This document shows, piece by piece, positions 5,601-11,756 of a DNA stretch of 16,522 nt. A model generated the notes under the pieces. That model was not told the origin of the DNA and did no database searches. It saw nothing but the letters and a program-made list of their open reading frames with translations. The translations under genes were made by a program, and so were the position numbers. The first letter of the stretch is position 1, and each line of letters begins with the position of its first letter. Source of the stretch: an uncultured bacterium (GTDB lineage Bacteria > Patescibacteriota > Patescibacteriia > UBA1558 > GWA2-36-10); contig CALDOH010000083.1 in assembly GCA_937912185.1 (NCBI GenBank), positions 1 through 16,522 on the forward strand, in the 5' to 3' direction.

Positions 5601-5626
5601 AAAAAACTGCCCTAGGGCAGTTTTTA
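5601..5626 (-). terminator. Terminator of the Trm9-like methyltransferase gene
   Basis: AAAAACTGCCC and GGGCAGTTTTT form a perfect palindrome (5602-5625). On the minus strand the stem CTGCC/GGCAG is followed by six Ts and begins at the TAA stop of the methyltransferase. It is symmetric, so it could also stop transcription from the plus strand. Confidence 0.85.
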
Positions 5627-6310
5627 AATAAATTCTTCTTTTGATTTTCTCACCAGACAATTGATATTAAATTTTGTCTTGTAGACTCCTTCGGGCCTGA
5701 GCTCGAAGTGAGCAGTCTGAAGTAGGCGGGTCAACTCCTTGTCCGAAAAGCTATGATAATAACGCCAAGCCTTAGAACCCTCGTAAGTTGTCCAAGGAAT
5801 AAAGAAATCATTCCAAGATTTTTTCTGCCAAAGATTTTTCATAGCATACTGGACATATTTTTTCTGCCAAAGATTCCAATTGGTCATAAACAAATAACCT
5901 CCTGGCCTTAACCAACGATGAATTTTAAAAAGTAAATCCAATCTTTCCATTTTGGTAGGTAGATGATGAAAAGAGGCTATCATACAAACCACATCAAAAC
6001 TATCAGGATTAAAATTAACCTCTGTCATATCAGACACCAAAAACTTGTGACCTGGAAATTCCTCTTTGGCTTTTTTTACCAGCTCTTTAGAAAAATCAAC
6101 TCCTAGATAGCTGAAGTTTTTATCAATTTTATCAAAAGACTTGAGTAGACGTCCATTACCACAACCTAGATCTAGAATCTTGAAATCTTCTCGCAAATAT
6201 GGTATAAAAACTTGTAACTCCTCCCACGGATAAGCTCGAGAAGAGGAAAACTCCTCGGCAATATCATCATATACCTGCCTTACATTATCTTTTATTTTTT
6301 GAGATTTCAT
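5624..6310 (-). CDS. Trm9/ALKBH8-like tRNA wobble-uridine methyltransferase
   Basis: A 228-residue class I SAM-dependent methyltransferase. Motif I is ILDLGCGNGRLL (45-56), the next acidic strand is GVDFS (70-74), Asp94 follows in SDM, and RPGG (135-138) is motif III-like. Features beyond the generic fold resemble eukaryotic Trm9 and the ALKBH8 methyltransferase domain: VYDDIAEEFSSSR followed by PW (13-29), the HHL with T..ER (115-123), FIPW (170-173) and RYYHSFSDKEL (183-193). Those enzymes methylate cm5U34 in tRNA to mcm5U34. Its ATG overlaps that of divergent elp3, whose product would make cm5U. Yeast Trm9 needs the small partner Trm112; none is visible here. The methyltransferase class is certain. 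The Trm9 assignment rests on remembered family sequence plus context, and a generic type-11 methyltransferase remains the alternative. Confidence 0.8.
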   Translation of the reverse strand: MKSQKIKDNVRQVYDDIAEEFSSSRAYPWEELQVFIPYLREDFKILDLGCGNGRLLKSFDKIDKNFSYLGVDFSKELVKKAKEEFPGHKFLVSDMTEVNFNPDSFDVVCMIASFHHLPTKMERLDLLFKIHRWLRPGGYLFMTNWNLWQKKYVQYAMKNLWQKKSWNDFFIPWTTYEGSKAWRYYHSFSDKELTRLLQTAHFELRPEGVYKTKFNINCLVRKSKEEFI

Positions 6311-7916
6311 GACTAAAAATATTGATCAAAATTTAATTGAAGAAATTTTACTGGAACTACTGCAGAAAAACTGTTCCAGTGAGCTTGAATTTATCCGGGC
6401 ATCACGCCAGGCTTTTTCAGCCCGCAAAATGGTCCCAGTATCTAAAGCTAAGTTAATTGTAGCATATAAAAATCTGATAAAAAAGGGCAAAATTAAGGAG
6501 GACAAGAACTTTGCTAAATTACTAACAAAAAGAGCAGTTCGTACTTTGTCTGGTGTTTCGGTCATTACTGTCCTGTCCAAGCCCTTTACCTGCCCTGGTA
6601 AGTGCGTCTATTGTCCCCTAGAGCCTGATATGCCCAAAAGCTACCTTTCCAACGAGCCGGCTGCTGCTCGCGCCAAAATGAACCTATTTGACCCAATCCG
6701 TCAGGTCAATATGCGTGTTCAGGCGCTACTAAACAACGGCCACCAAGTCGACAAACTTGAGGTCTTGGTCCTAGGTGGAACTTGGTCATTTTACCCTGTA
6801 GAATATCAAGATGAATTCATCCGTGATTTATTTTATGCAGCCAATACTTTTGATGAAGAACAAAAAAGGGCCCCCCTATCATTAGAAGAAGAACAAAATA
6901 TAAATGAAACTGCTAGATATAAAATTATTGGTCTGACTCTAGAGACTAGACCAGACTATATCAATGAAGAAGAAATAAAGAGGCTTAGGCGCCTCGGTTG
7001 TACTCGTGTACAAATTGGTGTTCAACATACTGATAATAAAATTTTAGAACTAATAAATCGTGGCCATGACATTGAAGAGAGTATCCACGCTACCAAACTT
7101 CTTAAGGAAGCTGGTCTTAAGGTAGACCAACACTATATGCCAGACTTACCCGGATCTACACCAGCCAAAGATCTAAAAATGTTTGAGTATGTATATTCGT
7201 CACCAGATCTACAACCAGACCAAATAAAAATATACCCCTGCGTAGTCAATGAGTATGCTCCGCTCTATCGTTGGTATGAGCAGGGCAAATACAAACCCTA
7301 TTCTGAAAAAGATTTAATGGAGCTTTTACTTAGTGTAAAAAAAATTACTCCCCCCTGGGTCAGAATCAATCGCCTGATCAGAGACATACCTGAAGAAAGT
7401 ATTGTTGCTGGCAACAAAATCACCAACCTCCGTCAGTACCTACAAGTTGAGATGAAAAAACGAGGACAGCAGTGCAAATGTATCCGCTGTCGGGAAGTCC
7501 GCAGCGACCTTGTCGAAAAACCCAAGCTAGTCAAACGAGAATATCCAGCCTCAGATGGTCAAGAAATTTTCCTGAGTTTTGAATCAGCTGACGAAAAAAC
7601 AATCTATGCCTTCCTCAGACTTAGATTTAATGAAGACCCTAAAAAAAATATCTTTCCTGAACTAAAAAATGCCTCTCTAGTAAGAGAACTACACGTCTAC
7701 GGTCAGATGATACCAGTCTATAACGAGGCTGTTGATGATGAGATCAGCCAAGCCCAACATTTAGGACTAGGCAAAAAACTAATGTTAGAAGCAGAAAAAA
7801 TAACTAAAGAAAATGGTCTAAGTAGAGTGGCGGTTATCTCTGGTATTGGCGTCCGAGGATACTATCGCAAACTAGGCTACACACTTGAAGGTACCTATAT
7901 GACCAAAGAGCTCTAA
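6309..7916 (+). CDS. elp3: Elp3-type tRNA U34 carboxymethyltransferase (radical SAM + GNAT)
   Basis: A full-length 535-residue Elp3. Elp3 uses acetyl-CoA and SAM radical chemistry to build cm5U at the wobble uridine of tRNA. The N-terminal tRNA-binding region (about 1-85) is basic. The radical SAM cluster motif is CPGKCVYCP with Cys95, Cys99 and Cys102, followed by the Elp3 segment SNEPAAARAKMN (114-125), LVLGGTWS (153-160) and LTLETRPDYI (209-218). A Zn-type cysteine group is at CKCIRC (389-394). The C-terminal GNAT domain has QHLGLGKKL (483-491) for acetyl-CoA and GYYRKLGY (517-524). Most bacteria instead use MnmE/MnmG at U34, and stand-alone Elp3 is typical of archaea and a minority of bacteria. 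The start shares CATG with the Trm9-like gene, so its promoter must lie inside that gene. Intact. Confidence 0.93.
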   Translation: MTKNIDQNLIEEILLELLQKNCSSELEFIRASRQAFSARKMVPVSKAKLIVAYKNLIKKGKIKEDKNFAKLLTKRAVRTLSGVSVITVLSKPFTCPGKCVYCPLEPDMPKSYLSNEPAAARAKMNLFDPIRQVNMRVQALLNNGHQVDKLEVLVLGGTWSFYPVEYQDEFIRDLFYAANTFDEEQKRAPLSLEEEQNINETARYKIIGLTLETRPDYINEEEIKRLRRLGCTRVQIGVQHTDNKILELINRGHDIEESIHATKLLKEAGLKVDQHYMPDLPGSTPAKDLKMFEYVYSSPDLQPDQIKIYPCVVNEYAPLYRWYEQGKYKPYSEKDLMELLLSVKKITPPWVRINRLIRDIPEESIVAGNKITNLRQYLQVEMKKRGQQCKCIRCREVRSDLVEKPKLVKREYPASDGQEIFLSFESADEKTIYAFLRLRFNEDPKKNIFPELKNASLVRELHVYGQMIPVYNEAVDDEISQAQHLGLGKKLMLEAEKITKENGLSRVAVISGIGVRGYYRKLGYTLEGTYMTKEL

Positions 7917-7998: not shown

Positions 7999-8703
7999 TT
8001 GGCCGATAAAGCGACAATCCAGCTATACCGTGCTGACGGGAAACTAGGAGTTGATTTTGACTCCCCTCAAACCCTATCTAAATTTCTAGCCTTCATCAGG
8101 TGGTCAAAAAACACACGCAGCAGCGTGTATATACCCATACTTGAAAATGGGGGCGTCATCCCCCGAGAAGATCCTAAGTTCCAGGCTCTACTTAAGAGAC
8201 TGGGCATTATGGATTTTGATATTCCAAACAACCTACGAGCTGTTTTTCTGGTCGATTTCCTTCAATTTGAAAGGAGTCTCGCGATGGATTTGACATGGTG
8301 GGAAAGAATTCCCCGTGATCGTAAGGTCGATTTCCAGACCTATCTGGAAAAACGGCAGATCCCTCAGATCAGCGACGATCGCCAGACAACCCGTGAACGG
8401 GAGCTGATCAAGCTGGTCATCCTACCCCTACTCCAGGCTGATGGAGAATTCAATCCCTACAACGTGGAGATCGAGCTAGCCCAAGCCTGGGACATGACGG
8501 TGGGCCAGATGCTGACCAAGTTCCACGATCTGTGGCTGGAGATGGTTCGTTTGTGGACGGTCCGAGAGGTTGCCAAACACCTCGGCAAGAAACCACGAAC
8601 CATCCAGAACTGGGCCAGTACTGGCCAGCTCTTTGGTGAAAAAGGACGCCGCGGTCACTGGTACTTCACCCACGAAGTACTGATCGACTACGAAGCGGCC
8701 TAG
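7999..8703 (+). CDS. Helix-turn-helix domain protein, MerR/excisionase-like C-terminus
   Basis: A 234-residue soluble protein. The C-terminal 45 residues (about 186-230) read WTVREVAKHLGKKPRTIQNW, then a basic wing (GEKGRRGHWYF) and HEVLIDY. That is the layout of HTH_17/MerR-like winged helix domains in excisionases and small regulators. The N-terminal 180 residues match nothing I recognise; they are mixed alpha/beta without membrane segments, with a charged stretch at 105-140. The gene starts with TTG behind a strong Shine-Dalgarno, ends in TAG and is clearly richer in G+C (36 of 60 bases at 8461-8520 against 18 of 60 at 9241-9300 in glyA). It is monocistronic, with its own promoter and terminator. 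DNA binding is likely. Regulator, recombination factor or nucleoid protein cannot be distinguished. Confidence 0.8.
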   Translation: MADKATIQLYRADGKLGVDFDSPQTLSKFLAFIRWSKNTRSSVYIPILENGGVIPREDPKFQALLKRLGIMDFDIPNNLRAVFLVDFLQFERSLAMDLTWWERIPRDRKVDFQTYLEKRQIPQISDDRQTTRERELIKLVILPLLQADGEFNPYNVEIELAQAWDMTVGQMLTKFHDLWLEMVRLWTVREVAKHLGKKPRTIQNWASTGQLFGEKGRRGHWYFTHEVLIDYEAA

Positions 8704-10146: not shown

Positions 10147-10974
10147 ATGGAAAAAATAATCAACGGTCGCGCTTTAGCCCGAAAAATACGACAAGAAATA
10201 AAAGAAGAAATATATAGCAAACACCTGAGGCCTAGTTTGGCTGTTGTTTTGGTTGGTGAGGATCCAGCTTCACAACTATACGTTGGTCTCAAAAAAAGAG
10301 CCTGCCAAGAAGTAGGGATTGATTTTCATGAATACCTATTGGCTGAAAATTCTAGTGCTAAACAAGTTTTAGAAGTAATTAATTTTTTAAATAAAGATGA
10401 AACAGTGGATGCTATCTTGATCCAATTACCCCTACCTGAACACTTAGACGCCGATGAAATCATTTTTGCTATGGATCCCAAAAAAGACGTCGATGGTTTC
10501 CATCCAAGTAGTATTAAAAATTTTTTAGATAACCAATCTAGCTTTGTCCCTGGCCTAGCTCTAGGTATTTACAAGCTAATTGCTAGTACCGAAGAAAACT
10601 TAGCAAACAAAAAAGCGACTATTGTCGCTAAAAGTAATATTCTCTATCAACCAGTAGCCAAGCTTCTAAATGACCAAGGAGTTACTACTACCATTGTTCA
10701 TCCTGGTGACAAAGATTTGACTAATAGATGCCAAGAGGCTGATATTTTGATTTCTGCCTGTGGTAAGGCTTTTTTTATCACCGCTGACTTAGTCAAAGAT
10801 GGGGCTACTGTCATTGATGTTGGTACCAATCAAGTTGGCGACCACACCGTTGGTGATGTAGATTATTCGGCAGTATTTTCTAAGGTAAAATATATTACCC
10901 CTGTTCCTGGCGGAGTAGGTCCAATGACTGTCGCGATGTTGCTTTATAATGCTTTGAGGTTGACCGAGGATTAA
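10147..10974 (+). CDS. folD: Bifunctional methylene-THF dehydrogenase/methenyl-THF cyclohydrolase
   Basis: FolD oxidises 5,10-methylene-THF with NAD(P) and hydrolyses the methenyl product to 10-formyl-THF in the cytoplasm. At 275 residues it is family length. The catalytic YVxxK is Tyr45-Lys49 inside VGEDPASQLYVGLKKRAC, with QLPLPEHL (93-100), KDVDGFHP (113-120) and the C-terminal TPVPGGVGPMT (251-261). Two motifs are unusual: the usual PCTPxG is VPGLALG (134-140), and the NADP-loop G(R/A)SxxVGxP is AKSNILYQP (161-169). Cofactor preference may therefore differ from standard FolD. It follows glyA and its stop overlaps, by 4 nt, the stop of the convergent exonuclease gene, with no terminator between. 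The start ATG at 10147 has no Shine-Dalgarno. Confidence 0.94.
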   Translation: MEKIINGRALARKIRQEIKEEIYSKHLRPSLAVVLVGEDPASQLYVGLKKRACQEVGIDFHEYLLAENSSAKQVLEVINFLNKDETVDAILIQLPLPEHLDADEIIFAMDPKKDVDGFHPSSIKNFLDNQSSFVPGLALGIYKLIASTEENLANKKATIVAKSNILYQPVAKLLNDQGVTTTIVHPGDKDLTNRCQEADILISACGKAFFITADLVKDGATVIDVGTNQVGDHTVGDVDYSAVFSKVKYITPVPGGVGPMTVAMLLYNALRLTED

Positions 10975-11756
10975 ATCAAAGTATTTTGCCAAGAGTCCAT
11001 CTTGCCAGCCGTTTTGGCTGTTTTTATTTTATCTATATCAAACACCCTGACTGCTCCCCTAAGGTGACAAAATGCTTTTACTTTATTACCCGTTATTCTC
11101 TGCACGTCAATTTTGCGATTGGTAGTCTGACCCTTCTCGTCAATATAATCTATTTCTAATTGTTCTCCCCTATCCAGTGCATCATGGACCCTTTGCTCGA
11201 CTGTGTTGGCACTACCATTGGCCCAACGGGCCACGATCTTTTCTTTAACACCCGAATTGGTATACCAGATATGTCCATGCTCCTTGCCGTAGTCATAGAC
11301 CTCTTTGGTGACCTTAACATCGTCCAAACAATACTTAATCAAATTATCCCAATCATTATTACGAAGATACATAATAGCGTCTAGGCCACTACCAGACTTG
11401 CCGTAGCCCAAAGTGCTCATGGCTACAGACTCCAATTTGAGCCTATGACCCAGGGCATGAACCACTTCTTCCAAAATATCTAAGTGAGGAATGGTTGATA
11501 AATCAAAATCTTTAAAATATGGCTGGAGAACTACATTGTCAAAACTTTTACTATTGAAACCAATCAATAATTCTGTATTTTTGAGAACCTCCAAGAGTTC
11601 ATCAAACTCCTCTTTTTTAAAAGCGCGGTATTTATCTTTATTATAAGAATAAACACCTACTACAGAGACGCCTAGTTTGTGATTATTATGATGACCGCCT
11701 ACTTCATCAAAGGTTCTTTCAGTTTCTAAATCAAATACTATTTTATCTTTTTCCAT
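10971..11756 (-). CDS. DEDD-type exonuclease (YprB-like) fused to a WYL-like domain
   Basis: A 261-residue protein with two parts. Residues 5-160 form an RNase H-like 3'-5' exonuclease domain: motif I FDLET (Asp9, Glu11), motif II IGFNSKSFDN (Asp73), and motif III YCLDD (Tyr142, Asp146), i.e. a DEDDy arrangement like the YprB/RNase_H_2 family. Residues about 187-247 (LEIDYIDEKGQTTNRK, then VKAFCHLRGAVRVFDIDKI) resemble a WYL domain, a ligand- or nucleic-acid-sensing fold, with the WYL tripeptide itself degenerate. It is the last gene of the minus-strand operon, 30 nt after the UvrD/PcrA-type helicase, suggesting DNA repair together with it. RNA as substrate is possible. The exonuclease half is more certain than the WYL half. 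Confidence 0.82.
   Translation of the reverse strand: MEKDKIVFDLETERTFDEVGGHHNNHKLGVSVVGVYSYNKDKYRAFKKEEFDELLEVLKNTELLIGFNSKSFDNVVLQPYFKDFDLSTIPHLDILEEVVHALGHRLKLESVAMSTLGYGKSGSGLDAIMYLRNNDWDNLIKYCLDDVKVTKEVYDYGKEHGHIWYTNSGVKEKIVARWANGSANTVEQRVHDALDRGEQLEIDYIDEKGQTTNRKIDVQRITGNKVKAFCHLRGAVRVFDIDKIKTAKTAGKMDSWQNTLI

Follow-up and report, generated by a model that had tools for sequence, protein, structure and literature searches.

A divergent elp3 and Trm9-like gene pair in Patescibacteria as a probable bacterial route to the tRNA modification mcm5U34

How might bacteria with reduced genomes decode split codon boxes without MnmE and MnmG, the enzymes that bacteria normally use to modify uridine 34 (U34) of the tRNA anticodon? 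We analysed a stretch of 16,522 nucleotides (the window) from an uncultured bacterium of the class Patescibacteriia; it is contig 83 (CALDOH010000083.1) of the 866-kb, 163-contig assembly GCA_937912185.1, which has a completeness of 89.3%. In the window, a gene for Elp3 lies back to back with a gene for a methyltransferase resembling Trm9. The pair offers a concrete, testable answer: it is probably a two-protein pathway in which Elp3 makes 5-carboxymethyluridine (cm5U34) and a Trm9-like enzyme, free of the activator Trm112, turns it into 5-methoxycarbonylmethyluridine (mcm5U34), replacing MnmE and MnmG.

In the proposed scheme, Elp3 would attach a carboxymethyl group to C5 of U34 by means of acetyl-CoA and radical S-adenosylmethionine (SAM) chemistry, and the Trm9-like enzyme would then methylate the carboxylate of cm5U34 from SAM, acting without a Trm112 partner. 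The two proteins together would stand in for MnmE and MnmG. MnmA probably supplies the 2-thio group in tRNA-Lys(UUU), tRNA-Glu(UUC) and any tRNA-Gln(UUG) that exists, which would give mcm5s2U34. We infer the substrate, the product, the order of the steps and the independence from an activator. The two genes themselves, established by computation, are arranged as follows.

5624..6310, minus strand: Trm9-like class I SAM methyltransferase of 228 residues (open reading frame; PDB sequence match to Trm9; AlphaFold model)
6309..7916, plus strand: Elp3, a predicted radical SAM and GNAT (GCN5-related N-acetyltransferase) tRNA U34 carboxymethylase of 535 residues (TIGR01211; ELP3-family structure)
6308..6311, no single strand: divergent, overlapping start codons, CATG (sequence; both starts supported by relatives)

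A preliminary description of the window had reported a full-length Elp3 back to back with a 228-residue methyltransferase, and both reading frames are indeed found in this arrangement, with starts that share the letters CATG. The methyltransferase shares its first methionine with close homologues, and the start methionine of Elp3 is present in 12 of 14 aligned relatives (the exceptions being L011 and L025). Because both start methionines are kept in relatives, there is no gap between the two genes.

The Elp3 protein passes the curated family model TIGR01211 with 546.9 bits (cut-off 350) and matches the ELP3-family structure 6iaz_A with an E-value of 1.3e-125. The residues expected of the active site can be located within it.

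6591..6614, plus strand: radical SAM cysteines C95, C99 and C102 of Elp3 (structure-chain alignment)
6942..6944, plus strand: E212 of Elp3 (in ETRPD), proposed equivalent of M. infernus E207 (alignment; equal 95-residue distance to the lysine)
7227..7235, plus strand: K307-I-Y309 of Elp3 (in KIYPC), proposed equivalents of M. infernus K302 and Y304 (alignment)
7755..7772, plus strand: QHLGLG of Elp3 (residues 483-488), presumed acetyl-CoA loop (alignment)

We take QHLGLG to be the acetyl-CoA loop from the motif. Residues C95, C99, C102, E212, K307 and Y309 align with the ELP3-family chain, and the spacings between the glutamate, lysine and tyrosine (95 and 2) match the M. infernus numbering; the source organism of that chain is not shown in the alignment. 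In M. infernus Elp3, the variants E207A, K302R, K302A and Y304A have no or nearly no activity, according to the accessible text of PMC13315578. From its sequence, the Elp3 of the window is predicted to be a carboxymethylase that makes cm5U34.

The methyltransferase points to Trm9 in sequence searches of the PDB. Its best match is Yarrowia Trm9 (5cm2_Z), at 7.3e-16 against 2.9e-15 for the runner-up in a single-sequence search, and the gap is wider with a 30-sequence profile (2.1e-27 against 8.1e-21). The N-terminal segment VY(D/N)xIAxxFSxxR..PW is common to the methyltransferase and full-length fungal Trm9 proteins. The Trm9 motifs named in the preliminary description hold up as well: VYDDIAEEFSSSR..PW, the (I/V)PW segment and RYYH...EL are all common to fungal Trm9. 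The AlphaFold model has a mean predicted local distance difference test score (pLDDT) of 92.6, and by fold comparison Trm9 could not be told apart from the other methyltransferases of class I. A profile search against Trm9/ALKBH8 and generic models, which the preliminary description had proposed as a check, comes out partly in its favour: Trm9 is first in the PDB, and none of the best 25 of the 32 NCBIfam families matching the methyltransferase reaches its cut-off (the top scores are UbiE, 47.8 bits with a cut-off of 216, and DVU1556, 47.7 bits with a cut-off of 155), but two broad Pfam models are passed, Ubie_methyltran (PF01209, 34.3, gathering 20.1) and MetW (PF07021, 23.2, gathering 21). 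General models lead in Pfam, with Methyltransf_25 at 74.6 bits. The names of the 120 listed relatives are mostly generic; one source labels P0073 as TRM9 and P0031 as an alkB homologue, so the likeness to Trm9 had already been picked up by automatic annotation. The nearest named relatives of the methyltransferase belong to Candidatus Komeilibacteria, which puts the genome within the Patescibacteria (Candidate Phyla Radiation).

Residues that matter in Trm9 are retained, N271 by hand alignment. In the yeast enzyme, R29A, H115A, R241A, Y243A and N271A strongly affect tRNA affinity and catalysis, and these five residues are inferred to orient cm5U34, as stated in the accessible part of a review (PMC5372719). 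Direct alignment gives R25, H115, R183 and Y185 in the window protein as the equivalents of R29, H115, R241 and Y243. The spacings R29-H115 (86) and R241-N271 (30) agree with the Yarrowia Trm9 sequence, which fixes the alignment columns. N215 was matched to N271 only after the last strand had been shifted by hand, and the profile puts a fungal tryptophan there. We counted each residue in 81 aligned rows from 80 loci in named genomes, two of them archaeal; these are the best 80 of 380 relatives of the methyltransferase and are therefore biased towards close ones.

6224..6238, minus strand: R25-A-Y-P-W29 of the methyltransferase, R25 corresponding to Trm9 R29 (R25 in 80/81 rows, W29 in 73/81)
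5963..5968, minus strand: H115-H116 of the methyltransferase, H115 corresponding to Trm9 H115 (H115 in 70/81 rows, H116 in 78/81)
5753..5764, minus strand: R183-Y-Y185-H of the methyltransferase, R183 and Y185 corresponding to Trm9 R241 and Y243 (R183 in 77/81 rows, Y185 in 61/81)
5666..5668, minus strand: N215 of the methyltransferase, proposed equivalent of Trm9 N271 (N in 69/81 rows, 10 others unaligned; hand shift of the C-terminal strand)

W145 is present in 80 of the 81 rows. Ten other methyltransferases, namely nine weak matches from relatives and L002 of this genome, served as a comparison set, several rows of which are unaligned at the positions concerned: R25, W145 and Y185 occur in none of them and R183 in one (L140). 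The histidine pair is not specific, since H115 is also found in five and H116 in all ten of these proteins. Two copies within the class, from G049 and G038 (L150 and L151), have leucine instead of R183, and that of G049 also lacks H115 and N215.

Conservation of the pair was followed in 53 class genomes, counting this one; 40 of them have a completeness of 90% or more and contamination of 5% or less. Only matches above 130 bits were counted as the methyltransferase; 10 weaker matches (73.8 to 91.3 bits, among them the sole match of G022) were taken as other methyltransferases. Elp3 occurs in 41 genomes (40 over the cut-off; in G020 it is in two pieces) and the methyltransferase likewise in 41: both genes are found in 40, neither in 11 and one in two. 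Of these two, G046 has Elp3 only, with a contig end about 160 bases upstream, and G038, a genome 80% complete, has the methyltransferase only. By computation the two genes are tightly linked: 38 of the 40 genomes with both have them directly side by side and divergent (in G031 and G020, next to a piece of a split elp3), the two exceptions being G049, where they are divergent 3.5 kb apart, and G047, where they lie 5 kb apart on the same strand. The arrangement is divergent in 28 of the 30 loci tested, which represent those 30 of the 41 Elp3 genomes that were given as loci. Chance is excluded by this conservation in 38 of 40 genomes, which span many families of the class; the survey of the elp3 neighbourhood proposed in the preliminary description thus finds the pairing strongly conserved.

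The association extends across the phylum. Among 153 genomes drawn evenly, 126 of which lie within the same limits of completeness (90% or more) and contamination (5% or less), and with thresholds of 1e-40 for Elp3, 1e-28 for the methyltransferase and 1e-45 for MnmE, Elp3 is found in 59 (57 over the cut-off) and the methyltransferase in 37, all 37 among the 59 with Elp3. None of the 94 genomes lacking Elp3 has the methyltransferase (Fisher p 2e-20, a value that is overstated because related genomes are treated as independent). The 37 pairs comprise 28 that are divergent within 500 bases, four divergent at 1.1 to 3.5 kb and five with the genes on different contigs. In the stretch upstream of elp3, three of the 22 genomes with Elp3 only carry an adjacent divergent copy below the threshold; 19 do not. 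MnmE is found in four of the 153 genomes, none of them with Elp3. In the named genomes, Elp3 lies divergently upstream of the methyltransferase in 66 of the 80 best loci (57 within 500 bases, nine at 500-1500); of the 14 loci with no divergent Elp3, four have less than 2.5 kb of upstream DNA. Some of these loci are the same records as class genomes (L037 and G008, for example), so the class and named-genome counts are not independent.

Four observations from these surveys stand beside the main counts. Six genomes of one family (f45: G070, G089, G106, G122, G164 and G178; loci L165-L170) have Elp3 with no Trm9-like gene either genome-wide or beside elp3, and may end their route at cm5U or rely on a different enzyme. 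Because the MnmE and Elp3 sets do not overlap, 90 of the 153 phylum genomes show neither MnmE (1e-45) nor Elp3 (1e-40). Locus L038 (QZJX01000010.1), a contig filed under an Ignavibacteriales metagenome-assembled genome, carries the pair, with a methyltransferase 63% identical to that of the window; it may be a misbinned Patescibacterial contig. Two Thermoplasmata archaea (L111 and L115) have homologues of the methyltransferase, with no Elp3 match within 5 kb on each side.

The genes of the usual bacterial route were sought in the same 53 class genomes. MnmE is over its cut-off in none of them, this genome included, and neither is MnmG, with 9 of 14 control genomes positive in each case. Partial MnmE matches below the cut-off occur in 52 genomes, at no more than 115.8 bits (cut-off 252.6) and mostly in the GTPase part; presumably they are Der and other GTPases. 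In 15, MnmG matches weakly over the first 32-49 positions of the model. A complete MnmE/MnmG route was accordingly rejected. No free-standing Trm112 (PF03966) was found in the 53 genomes, and this genome has no match at all; the PF03966 matches in four class genomes, one of them over the cut-off, all lie in frames of at least 325 codons, and four of four archaeal controls are positive. The preliminary description had asked whether mnmE, mnmG and a trm112-like gene are present, and for all three the answer agrees with its proposal. The characterised Trm9 and ALKBH8 enzymes require a Trm112 partner, and we found no free-standing one here, though a diverged or fused partner may exist. As the partner was looked for and not found, the enzyme is called Trm9-like, not Trm9. 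The earlier suggestion that adjacency points to a working pair, perhaps without Trm112, is supported by both the conserved pairing and this result.

In 46 of the 53 class genomes, this one among them, MnmA scores above its cut-off. Among the 23 tRNA matches of the genome, U34 is carried by Lys(UUU), Glu(UUC), Arg(UCG), Thr(UGU), Leu(UAG) and Ile(UAU); no match came up for Gln(UUG), Arg(UCU), Gly(UCC) or Leu(UAA) in this incomplete assembly. The tRNA-Ile with anticodon UAU (loop CTTATAA; G000:C156:3512-3585, L119:1501-1577) was read by ARAGORN, and such a tRNA is an unusual bacterial way of reading AUA.

Three other explanations of the pair can be weighed against these data. Elp3 might make cm5U34 while the methyltransferase acts on another carboxylate, or elsewhere in the same anticodon loop, in which case the product is not mcm5U34. 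This seems unlikely to us: the Trm9 residues that orient cm5U34 are retained in the methyltransferase, and METTL6 is not named among the 56 single-sequence matches (E at most 0.001) or the best 60 of 182 profile matches, in both of which Trm9 comes first. A far smaller chance still attaches to a CmoM-like enzyme that converts uridine-5-oxyacetic acid (cmo5U34) to its methyl ester (mcmo5U34), as in gamma-proteobacteria. In its favour, CmoM methylates a carboxyl group on U34 of bacterial tRNA; the linkage here, however, is to Elp3, and CmoB (TIGR00452), without which cmo5U is not made, passes its cut-off in none of the 53 class genomes (only one of 14 controls is positive), with partial matches in seven at no more than 43.6 bits against 275. 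The CmoM model is absent from the best 25 of the 32 family matches, no search aimed at CmoM having been made. A CmoM identity was rejected for want of a CmoB over the cut-off in these 53 genomes.

It is also improbable, at a level between these two, that the methyltransferase is a small-molecule enzyme whose place beside elp3 is inherited synteny with no shared pathway. The Pfam Ubie_methyltran score (34.3 against a gathering value of 20.1), the 47.8 bits of UbiE in NCBIfam and the mostly generic database names of relatives would fit such an enzyme, yet none of the best 25 NCBIfam models is near its cut-off, and a quinone or small-molecule methyltransferase was rejected for this reason, with the Pfam PF01209 pass noted. 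Synteny alone is unlikely because the next commonest neighbour family reaches only 20 of the 80 best loci, against 66 for Elp3, and because the genes co-occur even in genomes where they lie apart. Two results qualify the proposed Elp3-Trm9-like pathway. The deep tree of the methyltransferase family gives no settled branching; built with a Patescibacterial set of 22 of the 80 best loci, three further loci and the window, and with the ten comparison methyltransferases included, it has long-branch paralogues among the Patescibacterial rows, and the test of one clade with fungal Trm9 gives an approximately unbiased p value (p-AU) of 0.277, which neither rejects that clade nor establishes it. In the phylum, moreover, 19 of the 59 Elp3 genomes showed no such methyltransferase partner (for G109, only 0.6 kb of upstream sequence was available).

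Elsewhere in the window, the signals around the pair and two neighbouring products can be described briefly. A scan for promoters was uninformative, with 10 found against 6.2 expected, and the terminator-like stem-loop listed first below is weak, since two such sites were found where 2.2 are expected.

5602..5625, minus strand: terminator-like stem-loop at the end of the methyltransferase gene (weak)
7999-8703, plus strand: protein of 234 residues with a C-terminal helix-turn-helix (PF12728), its first 180 residues having no Pfam match at 0.001
10971-11756, minus strand: protein of 261 residues with no NCBIfam match at 1e-30, which by eye we take to resemble a 3'-5' exonuclease

The proposed pathway resembles that of eukaryotes, in which Elongator (through Elp3) and Trm9-Trm112 or ALKBH8-TRMT112 act in turn, in its Elp3 catalytic residues, its Trm9-type methyltransferase with the residues that are reported to orient cm5U34, its U34 tRNAs and the presence of a thiolase. 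Unlike the eukaryotic mcm5(s2)U34 pathway, it has no free-standing Trm112 that we could find, its genes form a divergent pair, and thiolation would be by MnmA, not Ncs6/Urm1. In yeast with trm9 deleted, tRNA carries cm5U34, and ncm5U accumulates as well (PMC3110198). The preliminary description had called the two-step route one known from eukaryotes; the eukaryotic pathway is indeed established, but the idea is not only eukaryotic, because archaeal Elp3, Trm9 and Tuc1 homologues were proposed in 2008 to make a base similar, not identical, to mcm5s2U (PMC2584109, in its accessible text). That proposal, for Haloferax volcanii, likewise has Elp3 alone with a Trm9 homologue, and in Sulfolobus solfataricus the elp3 and trm9 genes form a cluster (same text). 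According to the accessible part of PMC5372719, Trm112 forms a fusion with some of the archaeal Trm9 candidates, and E. coli possesses a homologue of Trm112, YcaR. Our search turned up no free-standing Trm112, and the thiolase here is MnmA, a bacterial enzyme.

The route by which bacteria make (c)mnm5(s2)U34 through MnmE/MnmG(/MnmC) acts on the same base with other enzymes and another side chain, and MnmE and MnmG are not over cut-off here. Elp3 alone occurs in numerous bacteria (PMC13315578, accessible text). The stand-alone Elp3 of Dehalococcoides mccartyi is likewise a single-protein bacterial Elp3, with no downstream methyltransferase partner described in the portion of the source available. 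We found no report of a Trm9-like partner of Elp3 in bacteria in the literature searched, which covers few subscription journals, and nothing on Patescibacteria or the Candidate Phyla Radiation together with Elp3 or MnmE. As far as we could find, then, the eukaryotic route is known and the archaeal one proposed, and a bacterial pair of Elp3 and a Trm9-like enzyme does not appear in that literature.

Taken more broadly, and with less assurance than for the pair itself, we lean towards the view that many Patescibacteria make mcm5s2U34 by a minimal hybrid of a one-protein Elp3, a Trm112-free Trm9 and the bacterial MnmA, which would replace MnmE and MnmG there. The findings suggest that these bacteria make a modified tRNA of the kind found in yeast and humans. 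If so, the formation of mcm5U34 could be studied with the pair as a simple system of two proteins, and a Trm9-like enzyme that works free of Trm112 would reveal what the activator contributes. Bacteria would then have a tRNA side chain of eukaryotic type, and the Elp3 of many bacterial genomes would be given a function.

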